A DNA stretch of 64,000 bases. Source: an uncultured Clostridia bacterium (GTDB lineage: Bacteria; Bacillota; Clostridia; Christensenellales; UBA1242). The translations under genes and the position numbers were made by a program. The DNA lies in NCBI GenBank assembly GCA_947624415.1, contig CANQKH010000002.1, positions 62,001-126,000 of the forward strand. The letters are read 5' to 3'. Shown here in pieces: positions 6,101 through 25,910 of this stretch (its first letter is position 1; each line of letters opens with the position of its first letter). The notes under the pieces were generated by a model. That model was not told the origin of the DNA. It made no database searches and worked only from the letters and a program-made list of their open reading frames with translations.

Positions 6101-9100
6101 CAAACTGAATGTTTTGAGTTTACCATTATTATTAGTTGAACCATTGTTTAAAGGTAATTGAACAGCCGTCAAAATATTGTTATTCTCTGTAATTTCACCC
6201 AACTCATCTTTAATAACAATGCCAGTATTAATTAAGCTTGCATAACGGCTATAATTAACACGGAATGGAACTCTGTTCTCATCTTCACCATACTGAAGTT
6301 GAACTCTGCTTGTTGTGTAAATTTTTGGGATCCCTGCTTCATATTTGAATAATTTATCTGCTGCATTTGTATAAGCAGAAAGGTCGGTTAACACTTCGCC
6401 TTCTTTATAAAGTTTTCTACCTTCTTTAGGTATAATCTTTTCGCTTTCAAATTTTGAAGTAAGATATGCACCTACGAAAGTCATTTCTCCCATGCCCATT
6501 CCAAGATCAAAATCTAATGTTTTTGTTTCCATATCGACTTTGATGTAGATAGGATAAGAAGCATAATAATTCTCTCCGTTCTTAAATACAAAGTAATAAT
6601 CACCCTCTCTTCCACTCAAACTGTCATACATTTCAGCGTGCAATATTCTGCCATTTGCAAATAGGTCTGATTTTGGAGTCTTGTCAAGATAAATATTTTC
6701 ATAAGTTATAGTTCTATCACCTTGTTGCTCTGTCGATGTGGTTGTTGTAGGCAATACCCTTGCAACTTTTATCGCATCTGTTTGCAATCTTATCTCATAC
6801 TCAATGCTTACATTATTATAGGTTATATTCAAAACTAATTTTGATGGTATTCCAACGCCTGCACCAACATAGAATTTGACCTCTCCACTAAGTGGAATAA
6901 TACTGCTTACTGCTAAGTTACTGCTATTGCACATTACAATAGCATTTTCCAGTTTAACTATTGTTACTATAAGGTCAGATGTCTCCCCTTTTAAAATATC
7001 TTTCAAATCTTTTGTTATATATTTATCGTTATATGTTACTTTCTTTTCTTCAGTGCCTGCTACAGGAGCAATTGCTTGATAAATATTAAGTCTTGTTGAA
7101 TTTAGGTTATATGCAAAGGTTGGTGAAGAAACCAAGAAGTCTACAATGCTGTCAAAAGTTACTGGCAATGTATCACCCATCTCATCAGCCCTCTTAATTG
7201 TTTCTAAGATTTCATAATGCATCTCAGTGCCTGTTGACTTTTTCTCCATAAGACCTTCAATTGGAGATTTGTTGTCTTGGACTTGAATTGGGTCTGGATA
7301 AGTTATGTCAAGTTTAACACTAGGAGCAATTGAGATTGTATAATTTACATAGTAAACTTGTTCCCCAAAACCTTCTTGTATTGCTGTTACTTCTAGTACT
7401 AAAGTCAATGGAGTTACTGGTTGAACTGAAGAAACATATTGAGTATATATGAAATTGCCTTCCAACTTTTTAAATGCAGGGTCAGTGGTTGACGTTTTAA
7501 TTTTAAGATTTTTAAAGTTATCGCCAATGCCATACTCGTCGCCAGTTGGAATAACGCTGCTAAGTTCGTCAATATTTATTTCATGTCTTTCTCCTGCGAC
7601 AACCTCAACATCTTTTGTGATTGCTTCAGGTGTTGTAATACTTTTCTTCACGTTATAAGTTTGAGAGAATACAAATGTATTGCCCTCTGTCTCAAAACTT
7701 CTGCCTGTGCCTGTTTTTGTGAATGTTATAGTATAGTCAACTTTAAATGTCTTATCTTCCAACAAGTTTGCAATTATTAATTTTTTATTTTCTATTTTAA
7801 CAAATTTTTTTGTTTCATCAGAAATTTTTGCTTCTGTTATATTATAAAGCTCATTTTCTTCTCCAAATTTCTCTGTTGTTCCATTTGCGTTTACAAGCGA
7901 AATCAAATCAACTAAGTCATAAGATAATCCTGCTTTCAATTCTGGAATGTCAACTTCTTTTCCATTGTCGCTCTTCTTTGGACTTTGTGCTTTGTATACA
8001 ACATTCGCTTCAAGGTCTAAAATTATTTTAGCCAAATAGCCTTGTTTTGTAAATAATGTAAAGATTACTTGTTTGTCTTGTTCAATATAATCTAGTAGAT
8101 AAATAACCATTGTGCCATTTTTATTATCATAATCAAAGCCTTTTGGATGATCGCCTGTAGTGTCAAGATTGTCTATACCAGACGTGCACTCTATTTGAAG
8201 AACATCTGGAACAATTGTTCCCGAACTACTTCCTGAAGAACCTGAAACGCTCAACAAATCGACTGTGAGTTCAATATTTTTTAAATTATCTCCCTCTTTT
8301 GTTCCATTTTTGAAGGTTTTAACAAATTCTTCTGTTTGTTGTGTCTTTGTGCCATCCTTAAATCGAACAGCATATGTTTGTTGTTTCTCATTAAGAACAA
8401 ATGTGTAAGTCCTGTCGCCATTTATTACACCCAATTGTCCATTTGAACCATCAACGTAACTATGGCTTATAACTATTGTTATTGTTTCATCTTTACGAGG
8501 ATAAATTCTCATTGTTTTGCTATCTTCACTAAATGAAATTGAAACATAATCATTCCATTGCTCTGGAGTTTGATATGCAGTTTCAACTGTTGAAGGTTGA
8601 ACTGATACGACTTTGTTTACTGCTTTTAGTGTTGATAATTCAAGCACATCATTATAGTAAATTTCAACATCTCCTTCAATAATGCTTACAGATACAATCT
8701 GACCATCTGCAATAGTAGAAGGATTTAATATACTCTTCACATTTACATCTTGAAGTTTTGGTGTTTGTTCATCTGATTCTATATGCTCAAATTTAAGGTC
8801 AACAATTTTTGAAAGTTGTGTGGTTGTTTCAACATCATGGCTATCTTTTGTTGTTATCTCCATTGTTAGTCTAATTGTCGCACCATTTTCTGATTTTACT
8901 AATGCTTTCAATGTGGAGTTTTCCACTGATTCAAGTGCAATATCTTTGCTATACATGAATCTCTTTAAGCCTGAATTTAAGGTTGTGTCTGCAAATTTAT
9001 CTTCAAGATTAATCTCAAGAGTTTCATTTAAAGCACCATTTATATATTCTGCATCCCCGTTGTATGCGTATAGTGGGTCTTCAACTATTATGTCTGGAGT

Positions 9101-12100
9101 TACCTTCATTAGATAATAGAATACTTGTGGATCGCTGTATGAACTGCCAGTAAGTTTTCTAACTCTGTATTCTAATGCAATGTATACATCTTCTGTGGTG
9201 GATGTTGCAAGGTGATTTAATAATATTGTGCCATCCAATGTCTCGTTGCCAATCTTCTTAATTAAACTTGAATAATTGTTTGTTTTGTTTGTTGAAATTG
9301 AATAAACTGTCAAGGTTGGGCTTAAATCTTCCAAATAATATAGCCCTGGCATTGATGGTTTTTCACCTTTTTTATAACTTGTCAATATCTTTGTAAGTTG
9401 ACCTGCCTTAATTTCATTATATATGCCCTTTTCTATAAGTTCCTCAGGTTTTAATATAGAACTTTCAAGCGACCTTGTTTCATCTTCGAGATTATCATAA
9501 ATTACATTATTATATCCAACCCCAGAAAGTATTAAAGGAATATACATCCATGCAAGTTCTCCACCCGATCCTGACGTATCGTCGCTTGTTGATGATTTAA
9601 GGAATCGAATTGCCAACAAAACTTGATCATCGTTTAATCCATATGTAAGATTAATTGGTTTCAAGAAATTTATTATAGAACCCTTAGAGTTTGATGTTGT
9701 CTTGTATACATGATCCCTAATAAATGAGCCACCTTCCATTCTTGAAGGAACTGGATTTATTGGCCATCCCTCGCCTATTCCATTATCTGTATTGTATTTA
9801 TCATCGTTTGCATCTTCATAGAATTGCCAGTATGTGCCTTCCGTTAAATCAACTACAATATAATCTACTTGTTCCTCGCCTTCTCCAATACTTTGGAATT
9901 GAGCGGTTGGCATTGGTAAATCAGGTTGTTCTTTCTCTTCAACTGACCTCTGTTTTCTTAATTTTGAAGCAATTAATTGATATATATCCTGTTCACCAGA
10001 ATTATATAATTCAATATATACAGTTATTTCACCAAGTTGTGTCCTCTCTCCATTTGCTTCATAAATTATATTTAATGTTGTTTCAATTGTCTTTACATTA
10101 TAGTCAAATAATATAACTTGTGAGTTTTGAACAACATACCCTGCGTTATTTAACTCAAGATATTCGCTAAATTCATAGGTGAGTGTTAACGATTGAATTG
10201 GTTTGTTGTCGATATGTCTCGTAATGCTTACATATGCTGTTATGAAATTTTTTTGATTGTTTAACACATAGAATTTATTTTCCAAGTCTGTTATCAAAAT
10301 ATCTTTTGTTACAATAAACGATATTTGAATGTTTACTGCAAAACTATTCTTGCCTTCTGGTCTGAAATATACATCAAATCTTCTGGTTTCATCTTTATCC
10401 CAGAAATCATAGAAGTAAATATGACCGACTTGTATTTGACCGTCTTCTCCTGCTGGGTTAAACACACCAATAGCATTTGCTGGTTTTTGACCATATTCTA
10501 TAAGTTCATAATTGCCATTTTGATTTAAAATATAATATGTCTTTTTATCATCAAACAATGAATAGAAATAACCGTTTGAACCTTCATTTTTGTTTTCAAA
10601 TGTATCTTCCATTACAAATTCATTCTCTTTGCCAGCATACAGAACGTCATCATCTGTATCTCCCATTCCATAATTTTGATAATTTACAGTAATGTTTGGA
10701 TTAAGAACTAGGTTGAATGTTGTATTAACAGCACCTATTGTATCAAAAATTATAAACTGTAATGTATGTGATACATAGAAATTCTTATTTATAACTATCT
10801 TTGTTATATCAATTAACGATGAAAGTGTATTACGTATGTTAATTGCCGTATTTAAGCCAAAATCAACTTTTGTGCTGGCAGGATATCCTGTATATAACGT
10901 AAGCATACCATCTTCGCCAAACAAATTTAATAAAACACTATCTTCAACAAGTGGTGAATAATATTGTGGGTTGAATCTAAATGAATAGTATTCGTATGGT
11001 TGATCTTCACCTTCTGCGCTGGTTGTATAGAACATTATTAATTTTTTGAGGTCAATCTCATTAATGGTTGTTCCTTGAGCGTCTACCCCTTTAGCACCAA
11101 ACTTATGAACATCTGCCTGACTAATATTTGTAGTCTTCTCTCCCATTGTATTTTGATATGTTTTCTCATTTTTATCGTAAGCAATTTTTGTTATACCTTG
11201 GGATCTTACTTCAAATACTATTTCTAAACGTCTGCCTTGATAAGTTAAATCTGCTTTTCCATCAACGCTTTGTATGTATAATATAACTTTTGAACCATTT
11301 GTGTTTTTAAATGAGAATGATTTGCCATCTGCTGAAATACTTATAACACCATTATCTATTGTTGGGTCATTATTCTCATTAGGCACAGGTTGAAATCTCC
11401 ATTGACCGGCAAGAGTGTCTGTTTTCCCCTTCTGGTCAGTAATCTTAATCCATGCCCCATTATTGCCAACCAATGCTGCTATGAAAGAATCGATCGTTTC
11501 AAATGATTCTTGCCCGTCAACAGTTATTCTCGTTTCAAATTTGCCAAAAGTGTTTAAAATTTGTGAAACATCTACACCATTCAATGCTTGCTTTAATACT
11601 TCATCATCACCTGCTGGAACGTCTATGATTACAGTCTCTGCCTCTGGACTATATAAAACTACTGTTTTGTCTGGATTGAATTCCCATTCAATTTCATCCT
11701 CGGTGTTGTCATATCTAAGTTTAAACCAATAAACAATAATTCCTTCCTTCTTATCTATTTGTATAGAAGAGCGTGCGCCTACCCTATATTCTAATTTACC
11801 GCTCTTATCTTCAGCAGTAGTTAAGCTTTCGTCGTTGATTACAAAATAATTTGATATATCATTGCCTTCATTATCTATTAATACAAGGCTTAAATATCCT
11901 TTTTGATATTCATCTTTAAATACAGGAAGTGATTCTGGACTAATAGTAAAACTTATTATAATTGATGAGTTGCCGCCTTGGTTTATGCTAACCTCTCCAC
12001 CAATTTCTTGTATTGCACCTGTATCCATAATACCACTAGTTACCGAATCGATATATAGTGCCTCTTCGCAAACTATTTGCTTGTATGTCGAACACATTGT

Positions 12101-13960
12101 TTGTATTTTGTATAGTCCGCTCTCTTCGTCTTCACCATTTTGAATCGCATAATATATAGTGAATTCACTTGTTTGCGAAAGTGTTAGGTTTGCACCATCA
12201 ATAGCAAATAGATATCTGTTACCACTTAATGTTGAATAAGTTCCAGTATATTTTTCAATATATCCTGTCTCCCCAATAATAGCATTTGCTGTCTCTTTTA
12301 ATACCACTGCATCTCCATCACCAAAATATGCAAAGTATACAGCATCTCTATAAATATTATTTTCAGGATTTATTACATATTGAGAAAGGTTTATAGTTTC
12401 TCTTATAATTTCACCATCTGCATCATGCTTTAATAAAACTGTTATATCTTCTGTGTCTTTCCAATCTATTGGCTGTTCAATATGCTCCTTAGCATTTAAG
12501 GTCAAATGTTTTACTTGTGGCTCGCCATTTGCTGGTGCAAATAATTGCGACCTATCTTTTACAAGCAAATAAACGTTTACTGTTATGTTTTGAATATCCC
12601 TTGAAGTTATTTCCCAATATGAGAATTTTACATTTTCTTCTGATGGCAATTTTGGCCTGTAATAATCTACACCATCTATTGTTATTTTTTCTCCATATTC
12701 CAATAATAATGAGCCATTTTTTACAGGGTCTGTTCCATCTACATCAAATTTTATTGCAATGTCTTTTAATAAATTATCCAAAACCTCGCCTGAAGTTGAA
12801 TAAACATTGGCATTTAAATATGGGCTGTGTTCTCTGTCCCCTTGAACAAACAACTGATAAGTTACGCCTGCATCAATATCAATTTCTGTTCCATCTCTTC
12901 CAACACTGAAATGGTCAATACTTGCTTCCCCTATTGTTAATTTTAATTCCGACTCCTTGTGTTTTGGTAAGGTGCTTAAAAGACCAAGTGATGTTTGGTA
13001 GTATGTTTCTGGCAAATCTATTGCACCATCTGGGGATGATAAGAAATCTAGTTGTGCTTTCGCGTCAGTGAAAGTATAACCATTTATTATAACATTCTCG
13101 GCCATTCTATCCCCTGCGGTGAATGAAATTTTATTTTTATCTGCTGCTGACGATGCAAAATTTTCTGTGATAAACTCGCTTTTACTTTCATAAAAACTCA
13201 TTTTCTTTCTTCTATCCGTCTCACTTATATTTTTCTTATCATCGCTGTAAAGATATTTGCTTTCTCTTGGATAGAATTCGGTCATAACATAAAATTCTTC
13301 TTCTTTTATGACTGTCGAAACAATATTGCCACCCTCATCAACTATTTTTTCGCCCTGAGCATTGGCAAGATATGTAAATGTTTTGTAAACAGGAACATCA
13401 ACGGCTATTACTATATCAAATGTTGACTGAGAAATGTCTTCATATGCAACTCTTATTGTGCTTATTCCACCAGCAATCCACGAATAGTCTTCGCCATTTT
13501 CATCCTGATATGTTTTGTTTAACAGTTTAACTTCAAATGGAATACCTAAGGTTACCACTTCAGGAACTGCAATCGAGCCATTTCCAACCCAGCCTTCATC
13601 CAGCCCTTCGCTACTTCCTCGGCTTCCAACGAAAGATAATCCAACATCCAGTCTTGTCGCATCGGAATCTGTCCTTGGAATTGTTATTTTAAAGTTATCT
13701 TCAACTTCAATTTGGTTGGTTTGCGTGTTTAAAAGACTTTCATCCTCTAATTGGTATGAAATGCCTTGCTGATAAATAACTTTATCCTCAAATCCGCCCG
13801 ACAAGAAAACACCAAGCACAACTGCACCTGATATTAATAAAACTCCTGCAATAACAGAAACCACGGTCATCCATGTTTTCCATTTTGTTTTTAATTTTGA
13901 CTTGTCTTTCTTTTTATTCTTTTTCTTTTTGGTATCTTTTTTCATTTTCGACACTCCCAT
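3158..13960 (-). CDS. Giant membrane-anchored surface protein, 3,600 aa
   Basis: The first 30 residues contain 15 lysines, followed by one hydrophobic helix (about 31-54), giving a type II signal-anchor with about 3,545 residues outside the cell. The rest is low in Cys, rich in Asp, Glu, Asn, Thr and Ile/Val, and reads as serial short beta strands such as DKTFKVDYTITFTKTG and EVVTLGIPFEVKLLNK, suggesting many Ig- or cadherin-like sandwich modules. I could not assign a named domain with confidence. The last part (SIGQATIDPKSGEITLGKG) resembles Big/cadherin-like repeats. No LPXTG or other sortase motif is seen; the C-terminus is KLGKKK. ATG 13960 has GAGGTGG 7 bases upstream; an internal ATG at 13945 also has a GGGAGTG, so the start could be 5 codons later. 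Adhesion or envelope scaffold is inference. Confidence 0.75.
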   Translation of the reverse strand: MGVSKMKKDTKKKKNKKKDKSKLKTKWKTWMTVVSVIAGVLLISGAVVLGVFLSGGFEDKVIYQQGISYQLEDESLLNTQTNQIEVEDNFKITIPRTDSDATRLDVGLSFVGSRGSSEGLDEGWVGNGSIAVPEVVTLGIPFEVKLLNKTYQDENGEDYSWIAGGISTIRVAYEDISQSTFDIVIAVDVPVYKTFTYLANAQGEKIVDEGGNIVSTVIKEEEFYVMTEFYPRESKYLYSDDKKNISETDRRKKMSFYESKSEFITENFASSAADKNKISFTAGDRMAENVIINGYTFTDAKAQLDFLSSPDGAIDLPETYYQTSLGLLSTLPKHKESELKLTIGEASIDHFSVGRDGTEIDIDAGVTYQLFVQGDREHSPYLNANVYSTSGEVLDNLLKDIAIKFDVDGTDPVKNGSLLLEYGEKITIDGVDYYRPKLPSEENVKFSYWEITSRDIQNITVNVYLLVKDRSQLFAPANGEPQVKHLTLNAKEHIEQPIDWKDTEDITVLLKHDADGEIIRETINLSQYVINPENNIYRDAVYFAYFGDGDAVVLKETANAIIGETGYIEKYTGTYSTLSGNRYLFAIDGANLTLSQTSEFTIYYAIQNGEDEESGLYKIQTMCSTYKQIVCEEALYIDSVTSGIMDTGAIQEIGGEVSINQGGNSSIIISFTISPESLPVFKDEYQKGYLSLVLIDNEGNDISNYFVINDESLTTAEDKSGKLEYRVGARSSIQIDKKEGIIVYWFKLRYDNTEDEIEWEFNPDKTVVLYSPEAETVIIDVPAGDDEVLKQALNGVDVSQILNTFGKFETRITVDGQESFETIDSFIAALVGNNGAWIKITDQKGKTDTLAGQWRFQPVPNENNDPTIDNGVISISADGKSFSFKNTNGSKVILYIQSVDGKADLTYQGRRLEIVFEVRSQGITKIAYDKNEKTYQNTMGEKTTNISQADVHKFGAKGVDAQGTTINEIDLKKLIMFYTTSAEGEDQPYEYYSFRFNPQYYSPLVEDSVLLNLFGEDGMLTLYTGYPASTKVDFGLNTAINIRNTLSSLIDITKIVINKNFYVSHTLQFIIFDTIGAVNTTFNLVLNPNITVNYQNYGMGDTDDDVLYAGKENEFVMEDTFENKNEGSNGYFYSLFDDKKTYYILNQNGNYELIEYGQKPANAIGVFNPAGEDGQIQVGHIYFYDFWDKDETRRFDVYFRPEGKNSFAVNIQISFIVTKDILITDLENKFYVLNNQKNFITAYVSITRHIDNKPIQSLTLTYEFSEYLELNNAGYVVQNSQVILFDYNVKTIETTLNIIYEANGERTQLGEITVYIELYNSGEQDIYQLIASKLRKQRSVEEKEQPDLPMPTAQFQSIGEGEEQVDYIVVDLTEGTYWQFYEDANDDKYNTDNGIGEGWPINPVPSRMEGGSFIRDHVYKTTSNSKGSIINFLKPINLTYGLNDDQVLLAIRFLKSSTSDDTSGSGGELAWMYIPLILSGVGYNNVIYDNLEDETRSLESSILKPEELIEKGIYNEIKAGQLTKILTSYKKGEKPSMPGLYYLEDLSPTLTVYSISTNKTNNYSSLIKKIGNETLDGTILLNHLATSTTEDVYIALEYRVRKLTGSSYSDPQVFYYLMKVTPDIIVEDPLYAYNGDAEYINGALNETLEINLEDKFADTTLNSGLKRFMYSKDIALESVENSTLKALVKSENGATIRLTMEITTKDSHDVETTTQLSKIVDLKFEHIESDEQTPKLQDVNVKSILNPSTIADGQIVSVSIIEGDVEIYYNDVLELSTLKAVNKVVSVQPSTVETAYQTPEQWNDYVSISFSEDSKTMRIYPRKDETITIVISHSYVDGSNGQLGVINGDRTYTFVLNEKQQTYAVRFKDGTKTQQTEEFVKTFKNGTKEGDNLKNIELTVDLLSVSGSSGSSSGTIVPDVLQIECTSGIDNLDTTGDHPKGFDYDNKNGTMVIYLLDYIEQDKQVIFTLFTKQGYLAKIILDLEANVVYKAQSPKKSDNGKEVDIPELKAGLSYDLVDLISLVNANGTTEKFGEENELYNITEAKISDETKKFVKIENKKLIIANLLEDKTFKVDYTITFTKTGTGRSFETEGNTFVFSQTYNVKKSITTPEAITKDVEVVAGERHEINIDELSSVIPTGDEYGIGDNFKNLKIKTSTTDPAFKKLEGNFIYTQYVSSVQPVTPLTLVLEVTAIQEGFGEQVYYVNYTISIAPSVKLDITYPDPIQVQDNKSPIEGLMEKKSTGTEMHYEILETIKRADEMGDTLPVTFDSIVDFLVSSPTFAYNLNSTRLNIYQAIAPVAGTEEKKVTYNDKYITKDLKDILKGETSDLIVTIVKLENAIVMCNSSNLAVSSIIPLSGEVKFYVGAGVGIPSKLVLNITYNNVSIEYEIRLQTDAIKVARVLPTTTTSTEQQGDRTITYENIYLDKTPKSDLFANGRILHAEMYDSLSGREGDYYFVFKNGENYYASYPIYIKVDMETKTLDFDLGMGMGEMTFVGAYLTSKFESEKIIPKEGRKLYKEGEVLTDLSAYTNAADKLFKYEAGIPKIYTTSRVQLQYGEDENRVPFRVNYSRYASLINTGIVIKDELGEITENNNILTAVQLPLNNGSTNNNGKLKTFSLGYNYKLAIDVKVEQEITEVNNFKEVNVSFEYDSLVSFLGIHHEITGKAITASDFTASNSNLLFETLYYDGKEKLDGMTDKQFNAIKEFMNSHKEIDKFRKFVDQKNANDDGATNDNIYLFASAIQNANKNTYDYRFIPYGAKNLGDFVLCKVQYSIDETHKATFFVILKIMPDYDVKFAGNASNATIEEDGVVSNRDDIYEVVSTESEKNSYGNFKLTSDGTEGYLSVKHKFGTYTYVERSVSAFTIKMPLNTSIDSINYNDSNNLGVKIFHNYDKKNLYGDDDVGPWKITREEKVNEPNTPITEAPEYIGKEAIEFSEVEHVIFGNQYYMIEAKDNYGFKYRVYFVLVATKQTPSISNRIDIVENGLLDFGVTYQQLSISATKDNATNNINCVINSSMETPNEASGVSLLVFNGITAWQFDKDYVKDNVNVAGEDKTLLKNSVSGWGYDPSANNIVFSDEDKKLLAAPDIESIEIDSVSLYELSGRTPLATLTTVGGATGSNNANWVGPKEEGKEEKYSETLAERPFATGEGYFYNTKTKIKNERELSNPRNPFDKYKDPEKVDAIQENYTKNLWQIPRIENANVYQDSNVANLRIVVKLKYEGTTSYTVNNAEKTRSITEYCEVAAPISVIRESSLQQNDNKVIEDGQSFAIINDNSDQPGFNENQAGGFVIKKVINDTLEVLAPAGETISFNIELKDKEGKIIGEKTQVRVQNSSNNYQRTYYIPLSRYFNQNVEAENTVTISDPSSTSIQFFYISGEGISNVVEVNKPFTIAEIKQDVAYVDNAVMLNNGNCYSISKYYIIKGYYKTSEVDPEPQTEAEKEKFSYRQTANYIVTGRVYELVPTISVGEIIFAMDDENNDNRIPLENWAQKAFTLYKGTTAGEKGGGAIGRGNSIIINDDILDHLSFKLAEDVADSSIGQATIDPKSGEITLGKGFTDDQYINVVISLRVSGVGRGSGEATTDRLKELGTLKLGKKK

Positions 13961-18028: not shown

Positions 18029-18511
18029 ATGGCTAAAAATTCAGGGACATTGAAAAAAATTCAATCTTTACGCAAAGCAACTATCGGAGGTGCTGTGCTT
18101 TCTCTTTTGGTGGGAGCCGGTTTTTCGATTGGTTTTGGCATACAAAATTCAAAAGCCTATTCAATAATTAACGATGAGCTGGAATATCCAAAATATCAAA
18201 TTACTCAGTCGACAGAACTCGATAATCAGTTAAAGAATGGCCAGATTTCCAGCGAAGAATATTATGACGCAACGGAATTGGTAAACGATAAGAAAGCATT
18301 CTTAAAGCAATATGGAAGCGAAGAGCAGAATGAAAGATTTAATACGCAAATTAATAAATGTAAGCCTTTATTTTATTGCACGGCTGCCACTGCCGCCATT
18401 TTTGGTGCTTTGGGTATAACAGGTTGTATAACGGGAGTTGTTGAAGTTTTTTACGAAGATAAATTAAAAAAGGCAGAAGACAACCTTTTAGATGAAAAAA
18501 CGCCAATTTAG
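18029..18511 (+). CDS. Two-helix membrane protein, paralogue A of a tandem triplet, 160 aa
   Basis: Unrecognised family. Layout: short basic N-terminus (KKIQSLRK), transmembrane helix at about 18-38, an outward-facing or loop region of about 75 residues, a second helix at about 112-137, and a short charged tail. The loop contains LKNGQISSEEYYDATELVND followed by KAFLKQYGSEEQ, shared in pattern with the next two genes. ATG 18029 has AGGAG about 9 bases upstream and ends at TAG. All three proteins are 160-161 residues, which argues for tandem duplication. If the N-terminus is inside, both ends lie in the cytoplasm. Function unknown. Confidence 0.75.
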   Translation: MAKNSGTLKKIQSLRKATIGGAVLSLLVGAGFSIGFGIQNSKAYSIINDELEYPKYQITQSTELDNQLKNGQISSEEYYDATELVNDKKAFLKQYGSEEQNERFNTQINKCKPLFYCTAATAAIFGALGITGCITGVVEVFYEDKLKKAEDNLLDEKTPI

Positions 18512-18648
18512 TAAAAACATTCTAATTTTGTTCATTACTTTTTAATTTCTGTGCCCTTGCCTTGATTTGTGAATAACAAGGATTTATATCGCCATTCTTT
18601 AATAATTAACTTTTTTTAATGAAAAATTAGCGAAATTTGAGGATAATT

Positions 18649-19131
18649 ATGATAAAAACAGGAAAACACTATAAATTAGTTTCAAATATAGGGAAATGTT
18701 TAGGGATTGGCGCACTTGTTGCAGTATGCTCGGCCCTTTATCATCTTCCAAACGCACTAGTAAATGAAAAACATAAAAATGACATTCTTAAGGCGACAGA
18801 ATATTCTAACTATGTAACAGAACAAACACAAATTTATGATTATCGTTTGCAAAACAATGAAATTTCAAAAGAAGAATATTCCAACTTGTGCAAAGCACTC
18901 GAGGATGAAGACGCTTTTATTAAACAAAATGGCACTCCCCTACAAATCGAATATTATAATCTCTCGAAAAGCAATGAAAATAAACATTTCACCTCTTGTG
19001 GTATAGCACTTGGCATTTCTCTCGGCCTTGCTGTAACAAGTGGAGTTTTTATAGAGATTGCTGATGAAATGGAAAAAAAATATCAAAAATATATGAAAAA
19101 TTATAAAAATTTAACCAATGTTCATATTTAG
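18649..19131 (+). CDS. Two-helix membrane protein, paralogue B, 160 aa
   Basis: Same layout as its neighbours: N-terminal helix at about 18-38, loop with QIYDYRLQNNEISKEEYSNL then EDAFIKQNGTPLQ, and a second helix at about 115-135 (GIALGISLGLAVTSGVF). The ATG at 18649 follows GAGGA by 5 bases; a TTG four codons earlier lies inside the ribosome site and is rejected. The 137 bases before it contain no clear strong promoter, only a weak CCTTG/CAAGG hairpin, so it may be read from the upstream promoter. Function unknown. Confidence 0.75.
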   Translation: MIKTGKHYKLVSNIGKCLGIGALVAVCSALYHLPNALVNEKHKNDILKATEYSNYVTEQTQIYDYRLQNNEISKEEYSNLCKALEDEDAFIKQNGTPLQIEYYNLSKSNENKHFTSCGIALGISLGLAVTSGVFIEIADEMEKKYQKYMKNYKNLTNVHI

Positions 19132-19142
19132 AGGAGCAAATT

Positions 19143-19628
19143 ATGTTAAAAACAAGAGAACAATACAAAAAGGCAATTATAAAGCATCGTGTTTTGACAG
19201 GGCTTATTGGTTTGGCATTTATAGGTGGAATTACAGCATCAGTTGTCAGCATCAAAAAAATTGACAAAAATTTTTCTTCATTGATTGAAAATTCACAAGG
19301 ATATAAGGATTATTACAATCAAACTCAAAAAAACCTTTTAGACAACGGAGAGATAACTGAAGAACAATACCAGGAAAACATTAAAAAAGGACCTGACGAC
19401 ACAAATTATAATTTATATATTAATAAAGATGGAACTAAAAAAGAAATTGACAATTACTATAAACTGGAAAGAAATCGCATACTTTCCCTTGTTTGTGTCG
19501 CAATTTGTGCAGCGTATTTGCCAATACATTTTTGCCTCTCCTCACTAAAAACACAAGCAATAAAGCGTGATTATAAAGAAAATCAAGAAAAAATTGAACT
19601 AATCGATAATGATAAAAATCAACTATAA
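19143..19628 (+). CDS. Two-helix membrane protein, paralogue C, 161 aa
   Basis: Third member of the tandem set, 11 bases after the stop of paralogue B with a GAGGAG site in the gap. It starts MLKTREQYKK, close to the MIKTGKHYKL of paralogue B. N-terminal helix at about 17-36, loop with QKNLLDNGEITEEQYQENI, second helix at about 114-135 and a charged tail. The loop lacks the AFLKQxG segment found in A and B and has instead a short Asp/Asn/Tyr-rich insert, so it is the most diverged copy. The next unit (T-box promoter) starts 8 bases after the stop. Function unknown. Confidence 0.75.
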   Translation: MLKTREQYKKAIIKHRVLTGLIGLAFIGGITASVVSIKKIDKNFSSLIENSQGYKDYYNQTQKNLLDNGEITEEQYQENIKKGPDDTNYNLYINKDGTKKEIDNYYKLERNRILSLVCVAICAAYLPIHFCLSSLKTQAIKRDYKENQEKIELIDNDKNQL

Positions 19629-19944: not shown

Positions 19945-21327
19945 ATGAAAGAAATGAAAGCAACCATGGACAAAATTGTTAATTTATGTAAATCGCGTGG
20001 GTTTATTTTTCAAGGTAGCGAAATTTATGGCGGTTTTGCAAATACCTGGGATTTTGGTCCAATTGGAGTTGAACTTAAAAATAACATTAAAAGGGCTTGG
20101 TGGAAAAGGTTTGTTCAAGAAGACCCTTCCACCTATGGCATAGATGCCGCTATATTAATGAACCCTACTGTTTGGCAAGCATCAGGGCATATAGAAAGTT
20201 TTGGCGACCCTAAAATGGATTGCAAAAATTGCAAAACTCGTCATAGAGCAGACACATTAATAGAAAACCACAGCAAGGGTAAAGTCTCGGCAGAAGGAAT
20301 GAGCAACGAAGAAATGGAAAAATATATAGAAGAACATGATGTCCGCTGCCCTGTTTGCGGAAAAAGAGATTTCACCCCTATCCGTAAATTTAACCCAATG
20401 TTTACAACTTCAAGAGATATGACTGGTGAGGCAAGCAATGAAGTTGTTTATCTTCGTCCAGAAACTTGCCAAGGTGAATACGTGAACTTCCTAAATGTTC
20501 AACGCTCAACTCGTGCAAAAGTTCCATTCGCAATCGCTCAGATTGGAAAATCTTTTAGAAATGAAATTACTCCTGGTAACTTCCTCTTTAGAACAATCGA
20601 ATTTGAACAAATGGAATTACAAAAATTTTGTAAAGATGAAGATAGCATGAATTATTATAACGAATATAAAGAAAAAGCATTGCAATTTGTCAAAGATTTA
20701 GGCCTGGATTGCGAGCATTTAAGATTCCACGACCACGACAAACTCGCTCACTATGCTAAAGCGGCTTGCGACATTCAATTTCTCTTTCCAATTGGTTGGC
20801 AAGAACTTAATGGAATACACCACAGAGGAACATGGGATTTGTCAAGGCATCAAGAATTTTCTGGCAAAAATATGAATTATCTTGACCCCGTTACTAACGA
20901 AAAATTTATCCCTACTGTCATTGAATATTCAATTGGTGCAGATAGACTCACTCTTGCTCTTCTTTGTGAAGCATATGATGAAGAAGTCCTTGACAATGGT
21001 GAAACAAGAGTTGTAATGCATTTAAACCCTTCAATAGCCCCTTACAAAGTTGCAGTTTTGCCTCTCCAAAAGAATCTTTCTGACAAGGCAAAAGATGTTC
21101 TAAACATTTTAAATAAAGAATTTATGTGCGACTATGATGAAGCGGGGTCAATTGGAAAAAGATATCGTAGGCAAGACGAAATTGGAACTCCTTTCGCTGT
21201 AACAATTGACTTTGATACTCTTGAAAATAATACCGTTACTATCCGCGACAGAGATAGCATGGAACAAATTCGTCTTGGAATCGACGAACTTGTAGATTAC
21301 ATTCAAAAAAGAATAAAATTTAATTAA
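19945..21327 (+). CDS. glyS: Glycyl-tRNA synthetase, dimeric single-chain type, 460 aa
   Basis: Charges tRNA-Gly with glycine using ATP. It is the class II homodimeric type, not the alpha2beta2 form. Visible signatures: N-terminal GSEIYGGFANTWDFGPIGVE, a zinc-type set CKNC...CPVC (about residues 94-97 and 136-139), motif 2 FRNEITPGNFLFRTIEFEQM, and motif 3 with EYSIGADRLTLALL, followed by an anticodon-binding domain (PYKVAVLPLQK onward). Length is normal for bacterial members. ATG 19945 has AAAGGAG 7 bases upstream. The T-box leader upstream gives control by tRNA-Gly charging. Confidence 0.96.
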   Translation: MKEMKATMDKIVNLCKSRGFIFQGSEIYGGFANTWDFGPIGVELKNNIKRAWWKRFVQEDPSTYGIDAAILMNPTVWQASGHIESFGDPKMDCKNCKTRHRADTLIENHSKGKVSAEGMSNEEMEKYIEEHDVRCPVCGKRDFTPIRKFNPMFTTSRDMTGEASNEVVYLRPETCQGEYVNFLNVQRSTRAKVPFAIAQIGKSFRNEITPGNFLFRTIEFEQMELQKFCKDEDSMNYYNEYKEKALQFVKDLGLDCEHLRFHDHDKLAHYAKAACDIQFLFPIGWQELNGIHHRGTWDLSRHQEFSGKNMNYLDPVTNEKFIPTVIEYSIGADRLTLALLCEAYDEEVLDNGETRVVMHLNPSIAPYKVAVLPLQKNLSDKAKDVLNILNKEFMCDYDEAGSIGKRYRRQDEIGTPFAVTIDFDTLENNTVTIRDRDSMEQIRLGIDELVDYIQKRIKFN

Positions 21328-21421
21328 TTTTAAGTTTTTTAACGAAAATTTGTTGATTTTTTACAAAAAATTCCATTTTTTACTTAATTTTACAGATTTT
21401 TAATGTTAAAATCTACAAATA

Positions 21422-21456
21422 AAAAATATATTGAGTTTCAAATTCAATATATTTTT
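21422..21456. terminator. Bidirectional terminator between glyS and the radical SAM operon
   Basis: A-run, AATATATTGA, a loop, TCAATATATT and T-run, located between the convergent stops at 21327 and 21457. Confidence 0.75.
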
Positions 21457-22728
21457 TTACTTGTCAAAATCATTTGTATAAGAAGGATAAAACATAGATA
21501 AAATTGCCCCATAATGCACAAATCCCTTCTTTGTAAAAAATATGAAATTATCTTTAATATAAATTAACTTTTTAGATAATAAAAATTCAAATTGCTCTTT
21601 ATATACATCGAGAGGATTTTCTCCTAAAATATCCTCCATTATCATTAAGTTAAATCGACCACAATATCCACTTATGGCAATATATTTAGCAAGCATCTCC
21701 TCTTTTGGCAAAATATAACTATCTTCAAAATCAAAACTTCCTTTTTCAATACATTCTTCCAATGTTTTGCCACTCTTACCTATATTATATGTTACTCCCT
21801 CTCTAGATTTACTTTGAGCAGATATCCCAAATCCTTTATATGAAATATTATTTATCATTCGATTTCGTATATATGATGACAAACCTAGGTCATCATATAT
21901 TGAAAAAGTGTTTTGTCCAAAAATACCTTTGTATCCTAATTTCAACAAACTCTTGTATAAATAATAATATTCATTAAAAAGTTGCTTTTTTGACTTAAAT
22001 TCATTTATATTTAATATATTTGTGCGAAATTCGTATAATGTAACCTGTTGAGGCTTCAAAATTGCTATTGTTTTTATGGCAGAAATTAAGTCTTTTTTAT
22101 TCTGTTTTTCCAATCCATACATTAAATCAATATTTACTTTTGCTATGCCATTTTTCTTGCACATCGATAATACATCCTTCATTCTTTCGAGAGTTGGATT
22201 TGGTCGCGAATTTCTTTTTAAAAATTTTTTGTTGACGGTTTGCAAGCCAAATGAAATTCTTTTTATTCCGCTGTTTACTATTAATTTTATTTTTTCCTCA
22301 TCTATAGTAAAAAATGTGGATTCTATTGAAGGCTCAAAATCCTCTGCTGTTGTAGTTTTTGAAATAAAATCCTTTAAAAAATTAAGCAATCGCTCTAAAT
22401 TTCCATATTCAAGACAGGTTGGAGTTCCCCCTCCAATATCAAGACCTTTTAATACAATATTTTTGTGTGTTTCACTAAATCTTTTTATGTCTTTAATCAA
22501 TATATCGACATATTTGTCTTCTAGACTTTTTTCTGGTTTAAGATATTTGACATATTCACAAAATTTACACTTTGATTTACAAAAAGGGATATGTATATAA
22601 TAACATATCTCTTTTTCATCAAATTTTATATCCCTTTCACTCTTAAATTTTAGCCAATCCTCCCTTCGAATTGGATAAGAAGTGTTTAATTTGTCGCTTT
22701 TTATTAATTTTTTATATGTTTTTTGCAT
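21457..22728 (-). CDS. HemN/HemW-like radical SAM enzyme of the peptide locus, 423 aa
   Basis: The radical SAM cluster motif CX3CX2C is at C50, C54, C57 within YIHIPFCKSKCKFCEY, the HIPFC context being typical of the HemN/HemW group. SAM-binding GGGTPT is at 99-104, and later segments (ISFGLQTVNKKFLKRNSR, NIDLMYGLEKQ) match the group. The C-terminal 70 residues resemble the winged-helix end of HemN-type enzymes. True HemN/HemW housekeeping is possible, but this gene lies 13 bases behind the second radical SAM gene in a unit headed by a Ser/Cys-rich precursor; HemN-like class C radical SAM methyltransferases are known tailoring enzymes in RiPP pathways. A peptide-modifying role is therefore the better reading, by context. 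The ribosome site is weak (GAGAAAAAA). Confidence 0.8.
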   Translation of the reverse strand: MQKTYKKLIKSDKLNTSYPIRREDWLKFKSERDIKFDEKEICYYIHIPFCKSKCKFCEYVKYLKPEKSLEDKYVDILIKDIKRFSETHKNIVLKGLDIGGGTPTCLEYGNLERLLNFLKDFISKTTTAEDFEPSIESTFFTIDEEKIKLIVNSGIKRISFGLQTVNKKFLKRNSRPNPTLERMKDVLSMCKKNGIAKVNIDLMYGLEKQNKKDLISAIKTIAILKPQQVTLYEFRTNILNINEFKSKKQLFNEYYYLYKSLLKLGYKGIFGQNTFSIYDDLGLSSYIRNRMINNISYKGFGISAQSKSREGVTYNIGKSGKTLEECIEKGSFDFEDSYILPKEEMLAKYIAISGYCGRFNLMIMEDILGENPLDVYKEQFEFLLSKKLIYIKDNFIFFTKKGFVHYGAILSMFYPSYTNDFDK

Positions 22729-22741
22729 TTTTTTCTCATAT

Positions 22742-23656
22742 TTAATATATTATATTGCCAAATCCTGCACAAAGATTGTTCTCAACAGTATAACTAAATT
22801 GACCAGCCGCCTGTGGATTTAAATCTCTAACCACACGTGAGTAAAATTCAACTAATGTCCCATCTTTTGATATATACATTCCATTTGCACAATCACAAAT
22901 GTTGGCATTCTTCAAGTTGGAAACAATTGCACAGTCAGGGCTTAAATTTTTAAAAATTTCCTTATATTCGACATAATTTTGCTTTGAAAATTCATTTAAT
23001 GGCATGAGTCCAACAAACCCTACTCTAAAAATTCCCAAATTCGCCGCCATTTCAAGATAATTTTCTACATTCTCTGCACTATCTATATAATTTTTTATCA
23101 AAAGACTATTTAATCTTAACAAATGTTTATTTTCTAGTTTGTTTTGCAAACTTTTAATTTCATCTAAGTGGATGGTTTTAAATCCAAACAATTGGTCATT
23201 CTTTTCATCTAAATAGTGATGTCTTGATATGTGAATTCCTGCTATATTCTTATAATTATCAAGTTCCAATACCTTATCAAGATTAAACCCATTGGTGTTT
23301 ATAGTAAGATATTGCCTATAACCTAAAACCTCGAAAATTGCATTTACAACTTTATTAAGCAACTCTACATTTAAAAATGGTTCGCCACCAGTTATCGACA
23401 CCCTATTTAATAAATTCTTCTCTTTTAGTTCTTCTAATACAAATTTTAACTTTTCTACATTAAATTTTTTATCGGTGAAGGTTTGTTTCTTCTTTGTATT
23501 GTTATTGCAAAAAGGACAACTTGCAAGGCAAACATCGGTTATACTTATATATAAATTATACGTCCTATACTTATCCTCTCTATTTAAGTCGTCCTTTGAA
23601 CAAATATTATTTCTTAAAATGACTTTTTTGCCAAACAATTCTACTTCTTTTGGCAT
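22742..23656 (-). CDS. Radical SAM peptide-maturase candidate, 304 aa
   Basis: The CX3CX2C motif is at C43, C47, C50 (ITDVCLASCPFCNN), with SAM-binding ITGGEPFLN (88-96) and a conserved INTNGFN strand (119-125). The C-terminal part has four more cysteines, C242, C254, C256 and C296, some of which could bind an auxiliary cluster, although the region is shorter than a full SPASM domain. The start is ATG 23656, one base after the TAA of the precursor gene, so translation is coupled. A frame extension upstream to 23788 only reads the Ser/Cys codons of the precursor in another frame (repeated Val, Gln, Arg) and is rejected. I infer that it modifies the Ser/Cys tail of the adjacent peptide, for instance by thioether formation, but the chemistry is not visible. 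Confidence 0.8.
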   Translation of the reverse strand: MPKEVELFGKKVILRNNICSKDDLNREDKYRTYNLYISITDVCLASCPFCNNNTKKKQTFTDKKFNVEKLKFVLEELKEKNLLNRVSITGGEPFLNVELLNKVVNAIFEVLGYRQYLTINTNGFNLDKVLELDNYKNIAGIHISRHHYLDEKNDQLFGFKTIHLDEIKSLQNKLENKHLLRLNSLLIKNYIDSAENVENYLEMAANLGIFRVGFVGLMPLNEFSKQNYVEYKEIFKNLSPDCAIVSNLKNANICDCANGMYISKDGTLVEFYSRVVRDLNPQAAGQFSYTVENNLCAGFGNIIY

Positions 23657-23657
23657 T

Positions 23658-24092
23658 TTAACATCCCGATGAAGACTGGCATGAACTTCTTGCCGTTGAG
23701 GAACAACTCGAAGAACTTGAGCCACTCGAATGGCAACTTGATGAACTTGAGCTGCTTGTCGAATGACAACTTGATGAGCTTGAACCACATTTTGACAAAC
23801 TGCTTGAATGACAACCTGCAGAATTAATTTGTGTTGCCTTATATTGATTGTTTAAATCTAACTTATTTAAATCTGCTTTTGATATTGCATTATATGCTTC
23901 TAGGAATGTGCTTTTACCGTCTAAAATAATCGCTAAAACATTTGAGTCAAACAACTTTTTAAATTGGTCGCTTGTTTGATCATATACCTCTGCATATTTT
24001 AAATATTTTACATAAGTCTCTACCTTATCTAAAACATCACCACCACGTTTTAACATTCTATCTAAAAATTCTATATGTTCTAAATCTGTCAT
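23658..24092 (-). CDS. Ser/Cys-rich peptide precursor (RiPP-like), 144 aa
   Basis: Residues 1-93 form a Cys-free helical leader-like domain (MTDLEHIEFLDRMLKRGGD onward). Residues 94-144 are a tail of 51 residues with 31 Ser, 7 Cys (94, 102, 109, 120, 130, 138, 144), 3 His, 3 Gly and little else. Three of the cysteines are followed by His-Ser, and the last residue is Cys. Gaps between cysteines are 8, 7, 11, 10, 8 and 6. The gene has a near-consensus promoter and a GGGGG ribosome site ahead of ATG 24092, and heads a unit with two radical SAM genes. This is the layout of a ribosomally made, post-translationally modified peptide. It is longer than SCIFF-type precursors, and I do not recognise a named family. 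Function of the product is unknown. Confidence 0.75.
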   Translation of the reverse strand: MTDLEHIEFLDRMLKRGGDVLDKVETYVKYLKYAEVYDQTSDQFKKLFDSNVLAIILDGKSTFLEAYNAISKADLNKLDLNNQYKATQINSAGCHSSSLSKCGSSSSSCHSTSSSSSSSCHSSGSSSSSCSSTARSSCQSSSGC

Positions 24093-24109
24093 TTTGCCCC
24101 CTTGTAATT

Positions 24110-24138
24110 ATTTTATCACATTACTCAATTTTTGTCAA
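24110..24138 (-). promoter_or_regulatory. Promoter of the Ser/Cys peptide / radical SAM unit
   Basis: Minus strand TTGACA (24133-24138), a 17-base spacer, TAAAAT (24110-24115). It is one of the strongest-looking promoters in the window; the predicted start is near 24103, with the GGGGG ribosome site right behind it. Confidence 0.8.
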
Positions 24139-24193: not shown

Positions 24194-24424
24194 ATGTCGA
24201 ATAATTCTATCAATAAGGGTATATCCTGTAATGTTTCGGGTTGCGTCTACAACGAAAGAGGTTGTAATTGCAATCTCGAAAGAGTCTCAATTTCAAAAGG
24301 AAGCGGAAGTCATCATTTCTGCAAAAGTTATATTTCTCTTAATGACGAAGTCGACTCGACAAGAAAATATAACGTAGAAAGTGCCGATGATGAATTTTTC
24401 GGTTTAGATGATTTTGAAGACTAA
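24194..24424 (+). CDS. DUF1540-like small Cys-rich protein, 76 aa
   Basis: Cysteines at 12, 17, 24, 26 and 43 in the pattern ISCNVSGCVYNERGCNC...FCKSY resemble the DUF1540 domain, a short presumed metal-binding unit common in Clostridia. The C-terminal third is acidic (ESADDEFFGLDDFED). ATG 24194 follows a strong GAGGAGG. A TATAAT at 24161-24166 may be its -10, with no clear -35. It is divergent from the Ser/Cys peptide gene, sharing a 100-base region. Whether it takes part in that pathway is unknown; DUF1540 genes occur widely elsewhere. Confidence 0.75.
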   Translation: MSNNSINKGISCNVSGCVYNERGCNCNLERVSISKGSGSHHFCKSYISLNDEVDSTRKYNVESADDEFFGLDDFED

Positions 24425-24468
24425 AAAAAAGACTAATATGGGTCAAACTTCCCAATTAGTCTTTTTTA
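24424..24468. terminator. Bidirectional terminator between the DUF1540-like gene and the envelope operon
   Basis: A-run, AGACTAAT, then TGGG/CCCA closing an 8-base loop, ATTAGTCT and T-run. It lies between convergent stops at 24424 and 24466. Confidence 0.85.
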
Positions 24469-25179
24469 ATTTCTCCTACTCATAAACAGCAACATAAGAA
24501 TTCTAAACAAATATGCAACCGACACTAAAAGTGATGCAACATATGTTAGGGCTGCTGAATTTAATAACTCGTCAGTTGCCACAATCTCTTCTTGGCTTGA
24601 TGCTCCCATATCTAAAAGTATTTTTTTTGCTCTTCGCGAAGCATCATATTCAACAGGCAAAGTTACTAAACTTACTAAAACTGAAAATGTATAAAGTCCC
24701 ACATATGCATAAATAATTATATTCCCAACACCTGTAAAAAGAAGTATTTCCAGTAAAAATCCTATAAAAATTACAGGAAGCAATAATCTTGAAATAAAAT
24801 TGCTTATTTTTATTGTCAGCATTCTTATTTTTAGTGGTGCATATCCTTGGGCATCTTGTAATGCGTGTCCAAACTCATGTGCAACAATGGCTTGAGATGC
24901 TATTGACTTTGAGTGATAATTACCTTGTGATATCACCAGCATTTTTGCTGATGGGTCATAGTGGTCAGTTAGACTTCCACTGCATTCACCAACAGATATG
25001 TTTACTCCTTGTTCGCCCGCCAATCTTAATGCCAGTTCTTCGCCTGTTAAGTCTAGAGATGAAGCGACTTTGCTGTATTTTGAAAACGCTCCTTGAACTT
25101 TCGTTTCGGCAAGTATTGCAATAAGAATTGTAAACACTATTAAACATGAACAAATAATATATCCAGTATAAATTCCCAT
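24466..25179 (-). CDS. YugP-type neutral zinc metallopeptidase, 237 aa
   Basis: Membrane protease of the Zn_peptidase_2 (YugP) family. N-terminal helix at about 5-24; conserved DHYDPSAKMLVISQGNYHS (72-90); catalytic HEFGH (101-105, with H101, E102 and H105); then several C-terminal helices (about 125-165 and 205-232). It has the full set of family features. It lies 8 bases behind a second paralogue, with GGAGGGAG as ribosome site. It is last in the probable six-gene operon beginning at 31966, and a terminator follows directly. Substrate is unknown. Confidence 0.88.
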   Translation of the reverse strand: MGIYTGYIICSCLIVFTILIAILAETKVQGAFSKYSKVASSLDLTGEELALRLAGEQGVNISVGECSGSLTDHYDPSAKMLVISQGNYHSKSIASQAIVAHEFGHALQDAQGYAPLKIRMLTIKISNFISRLLLPVIFIGFLLEILLFTGVGNIIIYAYVGLYTFSVLVSLVTLPVEYDASRRAKKILLDMGASSQEEIVATDELLNSAALTYVASLLVSVAYLFRILMLLFMSRRN

Positions 25180-25187
25180 TCTCCCTC

Positions 25188-25910
25188 CTAATTAAACAAT
25201 GTTCCCTTCTTTGACGCACCTGTCCAGAATAGAATAATTTTAAGAAATTCTGCCCAATACGTTAAAGCAGCACTCTTTAAGAATTTTTTACATAATTTAA
25301 GTTGTCTTTCGTCAAAAATTTCCTTCAAAAACACCATTGCTTTACGCGAAGCATCTTTTTCGATTGAAATGGTCATCAACTTTACAACAAGTGATAAAAT
25401 AAATATTAAAACACCAACGCCTATAAGTGCAAGCCCAATGTAAAACTTTGTGCCACCAAAGGCAAGCAATATTATTCCTGCCAGTAAACTTGGCATAAAT
25501 ATTCTGCCAACTATCCTTCCAAATTTCCTCAAGAAATTCAAGCGTTTCAACTTGTTTCCGCTGCTGTCTTGTAATGCATGGCCAAGTTCGTGCGATATAA
25601 TCGTGTAAGAGGCAAGGGTTTTTAAGTTTATTGTGTTTGATGACAAAAATAGTCTTTGAGCACCATATGCATCGCCTGCAATACGTGAAATCTGTATAAC
25701 TTCTAGATTGAAATTCTTAAAATATTTCTTCTGCAAATAATAAATATACTGCAATGGTGTTAATTGCGTATCTGCTTCAATGCTATTCATTTTTTGATAT
25801 TTTTCTTCAAAGCGGTCCCCTGCAAAATTTGCCACTGCAAGTAAAAAACATATTAAAAACGCAAATGCTATTACGCCGCCTATAATTATCCAAATTGTTG
25901 TATTGCTCAT
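25188..25910 (-). CDS. YugP-type zinc metallopeptidase paralogue, diverged, 240 aa
   Basis: Same architecture as the following gene: N-terminal helix at about 5-29, zinc motif HELGH (107-111), a double hydrophobic region at about 128-172 and a C-terminal helical part. The usual DHYDP segment upstream of the zinc site is replaced by GDAYGAQRLFLSSN, so one conserved His/Asp feature of the family is lost while the zinc site is kept. Tandem position next to the intact copy indicates duplication followed by divergence. It may have a different substrate, or act as a partner of the other copy (inference). Confidence 0.83.
   Translation of the reverse strand: MSNTTIWIIIGGVIAFAFLICFLLAVANFAGDRFEEKYQKMNSIEADTQLTPLQYIYYLQKKYFKNFNLEVIQISRIAGDAYGAQRLFLSSNTINLKTLASYTIISHELGHALQDSSGNKLKRLNFLRKFGRIVGRIFMPSLLAGIILLAFGGTKFYIGLALIGVGVLIFILSLVVKLMTISIEKDASRKAMVFLKEIFDERQLKLCKKFLKSAALTYWAEFLKIILFWTGASKKGTLFN

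Follow-up and report, generated by a model that had tools for sequence, protein, structure and literature searches.

A radical SAM enzyme encoded beside a cysteine-ending protein in an uncultured Clostridia bacterium, with relatives in huge phages

The stretch of DNA that was analysed (64,000 nucleotides, hereafter the window) was found to contain a compact unit made up of a promoter, a 144-aa protein (P0002), a 304-aa radical SAM enzyme (P0001) and a 423-aa HemN-like radical SAM protein (P0003), as listed in Table 1. The three open reading frames (ORFs) were found on the minus strand where the original prediction had placed them, and its 1-base spacing between the stop codon of the precursor gene and the start codon of the radical SAM gene was correct. 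The predicted promoter was retained as a good match to the consensus, yet it is weak by itself because the scan found 27 promoter-like matches in the region, where 19.3 (sd 3.8) would be expected. As for the predicted terminator, the terminator scan of the region found 0 G+C-rich terminators, and an AT-rich hairpin of -15.2 kcal/mol at the end of the HemN-like gene was retained as a possible one. Elsewhere in the window (assembly of about 1.45 Mb), two giant minus-strand ORFs of 3600 and 4574 aa were found at 3158-13960 and 50191-63915, respectively, and three adjacent plus-strand small ORFs of 160-164 aa with a similar layout, membrane-like by eye, were found at 18029-19628.

Table 1. Coordinates of the unit and its flanks in the window
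Feature	Coordinates	Strand	Basis
Promoter-like TTGACA-17-TAAAAT, 11/12 matches, TG before the second hexamer	24110..24138	-	consensus match only
Substrate (precursor) protein P0002, 144 aa, last residue Cys, probable substrate of P0001	23658..24092	-	ORF
Ser/Cys tail of P0002, 51 residues, 31 Ser, 7 Cys	23661..23813	-	composition count
Radical SAM enzyme P0001, 304 aa	22742..23656	-	ORF, Pfam, alignment
HemN-like radical SAM protein P0003, 423 aa, accessory	21457..22728	-	ORF, family matches
AT-rich hairpin, possible terminator, overlaps the end of the HemN-like gene	21415..21464 (about)	-	folding, z -4.7
glyS, flank of the presence/absence site	19945..21327	+	name from similarity by eye
Two Zn_peptidase_2 genes, opposite flank of the site	24466..25910	-	Pfam
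DUF1540 gene, between the unit and the Zn_peptidase_2 genes	24194-24424		

The first 93 residues of P0002 were found to contain 0 Cys, followed by the Ser- and Cys-rich tail, and a recount confirmed the composition given in the original prediction. The Ser plus Cys density of the tail was 38 of 51 residues, and of the 35 window ORFs that do not overlap and have 80 aa or more the runner-up reached 15, in the 4574-aa protein. All six Ser codons were in use within the last 55 residues, and switches between TCN and AGY Ser codons accounted for 11 of the 29 synonymous codon differences between the window and its relative L047. Because of these mixed codons and switches, the tail is taken to be under selection at the protein level and not to be a DNA repeat artefact. 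Three His-x-Ser triplets were present in the window tail, which recalls the His-Xaa-Ser system; CHSS/CHST was replaced by CGSS in the tails of L047 and a second relative, L048, and the repeats were rejected as a conserved feature.

P0001 was found to contain a radical SAM domain (Pfam, 3.8e-13) with an intact motif. Among the 25 aligned homologues, C19, C43, C47, C50, C254 and C256 were invariant in all 25, followed by GGEP, S144, H146, N221 and Y272 as further invariant positions. Three of the invariant Cys (C19, C254 and C256) lie besides the radical SAM motif, and their conservation makes it reasonably likely that they would be the ligands of a second iron-sulfur cluster. No NCBIfam model was matched at its cut-off among the best 25 of 50 families for P0001, the best of those listed being MoaA (65.2 bits; cut-off 284), nor among the best 25 of 28 families for P0003, which supports the original prediction in not having matched the enzyme pair to the known RiPP classes with radical SAM maturases. 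The nearest solved structures included MoaA, viperin and YydG, and only weak viperin matches were found with PADLOC. The likeness to prokaryotic viperin and MoaA, which act on nucleotides, lies in the radical SAM core, for which they are the nearest NCBIfam, PADLOC and solved-structure matches. Membership of the viperin family was rejected (NCBIfam, 31.1 of 180 bits for P0001 and 52.4 of 180 for its homologue L030), as was membership of HxsC of the His-Xaa-Ser system, to which P0001 is alike in the radical SAM core (33.2 of 267.9 bits, below the curated cut-off).

The SPASM domain carries a set of Cys in the C-terminal part of an enzyme. No SPASM-type domain was found in the Pfam matches of P0001 and its Cys do not form this set. 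Formylglycine-forming radical SAM enzymes carry the SPASM set, and formylglycine formation was set aside for lack of it in P0001. Glycyl-radical activation was also set aside, as no RVxGY-type motif, the mark of glycyl-radical proteins, was found. The sactipeptides and ranthipeptides resemble the present unit in having a Cys-bearing small precursor beside a radical SAM enzyme. P0001 differs from their radical SAM/SPASM enzymes in its length of about 300 aa and in having only C254 and C256 as invariant Cys after the core, and its substrate differs in ending in Cys, with no export genes among the families listed.

Distinct loci of the P0001 family numbered 32 and were found in Clostridia, other Bacillota, Bacteroidota and phages. 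Among the genomes searched, the genus gave 4 carriers in 112, the order 2 in 396, the class 2 in 391 and the phylum 1 in 348. Each count includes the window's own genome, the draws overlap, and the order was searched with alignment A3 and the others with A5. Same-genus matches of 25-41% identity over parts of P0001 look like ordinary radical SAM proteins and were rejected. In all four genus carriers (the window, L048 in genome G816, L130 in G812 and L047 in G863) the unit was found between Zn_peptidase_2 and glyS, the contig of L047 containing one, partial peptidase gene. The surroundings of the peptidase gene were compared in 20 same-genus stretches: 3 contained the enzyme, 12 contained glyS without an enzyme match and 5 ended before glyS. 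Because the carriers share the same flanks and 12 stretches show glyS without the enzyme, the chromosomal site is a fixed one at which the unit is either there or missing, and contamination is not its source. The genome contig scan recovered L047 and L048 (best-segment identity 73% and 62%, respectively) and nine loci of a Prevotella type, one of them labelled Bacteroidaceae. In the midpoint-rooted tree, which has several long branches, the Prevotella type (100/100) was placed among the phages and the Clostridia (100/99) grouped with the bacterial contigs G286 and G765 with a support of only 86/84. The distant radical SAM proteins L045, L046, L058, L059, L061 and L071-L074 were left out, and L001-L029 were other radical SAM proteins or the window itself. 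As a separate observation, two or three different tandem radical SAM genes, distant from P0001, were found at L045:4191-6917, L058 and L059, i.e. in one viral contig and two bacterial genomes.

The protein encoded before the enzyme was defined by a fixed rule as the longest ORF on the same strand that has 60 aa or more and ends at most 60 nt from the enzyme start. It ended in Cys in 25 of the 32 distinct loci, one of the 25 (L054, a 770-aa DUF1810 protein) being doubtful; in 6 loci it lacked the Cys end and in 1 no ORF was found. As a control, the other ORFs with a minimum of 80 aa were counted in 23 of these loci, and only 3 of 272 ended in Cys. Loci that were wholly or largely the same DNA had been merged (L040 and L042 with L039, L065 with L063, L076 with L128, L078 with L129, L089 and L102 with L048, L103 with L047, and L085 and L104 with L130), as had loci of the same protein type in different DNA (L080 with L066; L033, L049-L051, L053, L056 and L060 with L052), by eye and with DNA identity partly checked. 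L077 and L082, which are the window, and L105-L123, L126 and L127, which repeat contigs already in the set, were dropped before counting. With L040, L042, L065, L080 and seven Prevotella-type loci left unmerged, the Cys-ending partner was found in 28 of 43. Outside the rule, L062 contained a small Cys-ending ORF directly downstream of the enzyme, and L038 and L129 contained one nearby, further upstream. Two loci found after the rule was formed (L124 and L125) both contained the Cys-ending partner, as it predicted.

The number of Cys in the partner ranged from 1 to 9 (3 to 8 in the Clostridia tails) and the last residue was constant; all 30 partners compared end in Cys, several having been chosen for that, and this figure is not evidence. 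In 15 profile comparisons of the leaders between six groups (26 of the 30 proteins), one reached a probability of 78%, one 48% and the other 13 at most 14.1%. The phage partner tails shared patterns such as D-[PG]-C-G-x-G-G-x-x-R-x-S-C. The partner in phage locus L030 measures 86 aa, and two Cys lie within its final 25 residues. Because the partners mostly show no relation to one another in their first halves, the enzyme appears to be aimed at the tail, and it seems to read the tail end rather than the leader. The original prediction had proposed a look at the enzyme's neighbourhoods for co-occurring Ser/Cys tails. Co-occurrence with a partner was strong outside the Prevotella type, whereas the common trait was the Cys end: Ser/Cys richness was found mainly in Clostridia, most phage partners showed little or none of it, and it was rejected as the family signature, and the family-wide feature is the C-terminal Cys, sometimes the sole Cys of the protein. 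From this pairing P0002 is very probably the dedicated substrate of P0001.

P0001 also resembles the peptide epimerases YydG and EpeE, which act on a ribosomal peptide, in its size and in the sequence of its radical SAM core. It could be an epimerase of this kind, or another non-crosslinking tail modifier, with a conserved enzyme Cys as the hydrogen donor: YydG chains ranked with the better matches to solved structures (best 4.8e-12), the YydG NCBIfam model was matched weakly (4.8e-5; 23 of 300 bits, below the cut-off, so that membership was rejected), and two clusters as well as a critical Cys are described for EpeE in the available part of PMC8326336. This is judged improbable, as an invariant terminal Cys of the substrate would presumably be unneeded for epimerisation and the Gly-rich phage tails offer few epimerisable residues. 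Epipeptides are, in the same part of PMC8326336, secreted peptides whose leader is cleaved, and in this they differ from the P0001 system; neither phages nor a C-terminal cysteine were found to be mentioned there.

The main counter-evidence is the occurrence of Prevotella-type homologues without the Cys-ending partner. No small Cys-ending partner was found in L052, L055, L033, L049-L051, L056 and L060, and that of L054 is doubtful; the upstream neighbour was instead a protein that has about 290-300 aa and lacks a Cys end, or, for L054 and L055, a larger protein (770 and 465 aa, respectively). The type keeps the radical SAM/HemN-like pair, its HemN-like protein being 39-45% identical to P0003. 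No Cys-ending partner was found in the phage copies L066 and L080 either, nor in L057, which is probably frameshifted. A small partner gene beside a radical SAM enzyme, the RiPP-type arrangement in its broad sense, was found in 25 of 32 loci and is lacking in the Prevotella type. Either the Prevotella-type and L066/L080 enzymes work in trans, or substrates of another kind exist for the family. These partnerless enzymes would also suit a Cys-ending protein that is an accessory or regulator of the radical SAM enzyme, the true substrate lying elsewhere, which is considered quite unlikely: the leaders vary freely and the tail end is kept, as suits a reacting end over a binding protein, and several loci (L038, L064 and L076) contain two such proteins. 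The surroundings of the Prevotella-type pair (L033:1720-11023, a plasmid, L052, L054 and L055) contained ADP-ribosylglycohydrolase, NUDIX, DUF1810 and DUF6717 genes, and some neighbours contained a GSN..G.H.GGGAA stretch, macro-like by eye.

Matches to P0001 of 30-38% identity were found in the annotated phage records LR745206 (634,780 bases), LR756502 (642,428 bases), and LR756501 and LR756503 (both 735,411 bases), the 735-kb record containing a second copy of the gene. The four largest curated complete huge-phage genomes measure 634, 636, 642 and 735 kb in the available part of PMC7162821, so that the carriers, matched on length, are three of the four largest genomes of that 2020 survey; the 636-kb record was not among the phage matches of P0001. 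No mention of radical SAM or RiPP was found in that part of PMC7162821. Distinct viral loci numbered 22, including 19 from IMG/VR. Against the viral contigs P0001 as a single query gave no match, the alignments A1, A3 and A5 being required, and a single-sequence scan with L069 matched only itself. The partner in the 642-kb phage (L032:5362-5751) starts with MKKFNEFNRVNEG, and several neighbouring phage proteins (L030, L031 and L034) start with similar F..F.NE motifs. These starts look similar to the T4 capsid-targeting sequence, and the modified phage protein might be packaged and injected.

The HemN-like protein was found in the four Clostridia carriers and in the Prevotella type, and no HemN-like gene was found in the phage stretches around P0001 homologues or in the stretches around two distant Bacillota homologues. 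It is therefore not a core part of the system, although the original prediction had counted it in the closed unit. No close phage relative of P0003 was found: 32 records were matched at E 1e-10, all below 60% identity, with the best 15 of them at 22-34%. Its nearest NCBIfam family among those listed was STM4012, of which membership was rejected (143.5 bits, below the cut-off of 380), and at 1e-5 its PDB matches were solved HemN and NocN only. The likeness to HemN, STM4012 and class C methyltransferases such as NocN lies in the radical SAM core, and the distant, core-only match to NocN (2.2e-26) would make methylation, as by a class C methyltransferase, a candidate role. In 12 of the 22 viral loci an RlmN-like radical SAM protein was found (ten through sequence clustering and two by eye), and the three examined scored 70-78 bits against the RlmN cut-off of 290. 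Overall, the earlier reading of a radical SAM enzyme with a dedicated substrate was supported, whereas the Ser/Cys trait and the HemN-like core were not.

PnuC and NadR genes lay close to the pair in 4 viral loci, which belong to one clade, and in the bacterial contigs G286 and G765. In mycofactocin, a cofactor is built from the terminal residue by oxidation or decarboxylation. The partner could likewise serve as a scaffold, with a small molecule or cofactor assembled on its C-terminal Cys, for instance when the terminal residue is oxidised or decarboxylated: the last residue is the sole constant feature of the substrate, PnuC and NadR would fit a redox or nicotinamide link, and the Prevotella neighbours include the ADP-ribosylglycohydrolase and NUDIX genes. 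This too is held to be unlikely, as most loci lack PnuC/NadR, the two are established accessory genes of phages (PHROGs category) whose adjacency may be chance, and the 3 to 8 Cys of the Clostridia tails are left unexplained by a reaction at the terminal residue. At L030:2194-5710, L032:7045-10621, L039 and L043 a receptor-like gene (of TonB-dependent look by eye) formed a cassette with PnuC and NadR, as if for the uptake of nicotinamide riboside by the huge phages. At L129:4829-7444 (G765), two genes were found between the radical SAM gene and PnuC/NadR: one is AAA ATPase-like by eye, and the other may be the DUF2201-type metallopeptidase that was counted among the Pfam families of the neighbour proteins.

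No ABC transporter or C39 peptidase was found among the best 25 of 66 Pfam families of 119 neighbour proteins, which were chosen from 196 listed ORFs with mostly 4-6 kb examined on each side. This is taken as a hint that the product works within the cell, where it would probably serve as a modified protein and not be cut and exported; if so, the missing transporter, which the original prediction had left unexplained, requires no special explanation.

Taken from the conserved residues and the gene pairing, the unit is moderately likely to be a tail-directed protein modification system in which the terminal Cys would become a thioether; that a thioether is formed at that very Cys is put forward more tentatively. 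P0001 would largely ignore the first half of its substrate and act on the C-terminal tail, which is rich in small residues and ends in Cys. The second iron-sulfur cluster, held by C19, C254 and C256, would have an open site that binds the thiolate of the terminal Cys. The 5'-deoxyadenosyl radical would then abstract a hydrogen from a nearby residue, and a C-S thioether would close a small C-terminal ring. In the Clostridia tails this step may take place at more than one Cys. An optional second modification would come from the HemN-like enzyme in this unit and from the RlmN-like enzyme in many phages. With still less confidence, this could be one widespread leader-independent system that chemically finishes the C-terminal Cys of carrier proteins. 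Its greatest diversity would be in huge phages, where the modified protein would act inside the infected cell, and it would be shared by bacteria, some of which would have added HemN-like enzymes and Ser/Cys repeats.

The radical enzyme of this gut bacterium probably modifies the Ser/Cys tail of the small protein encoded beside it, and the pair points to a little-known route by which proteins are chemically altered; no description of a radical SAM enzyme paired with a Cys-ending protein was found in the titles and abstract openings returned by the literature search. A radical SAM enzyme of the P0001 profile beside a Cys-ending protein can serve as a search rule, and both later loci were correctly predicted by it. 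Should the terminal Cys prove to be the target, a new substrate rule for radical SAM enzymes would follow from the family, in which the C-terminal end of a protein is recognised and not a leader. As the family occurs in the largest known phage genomes, the question arises of what a virus gains from a radical-modified protein.
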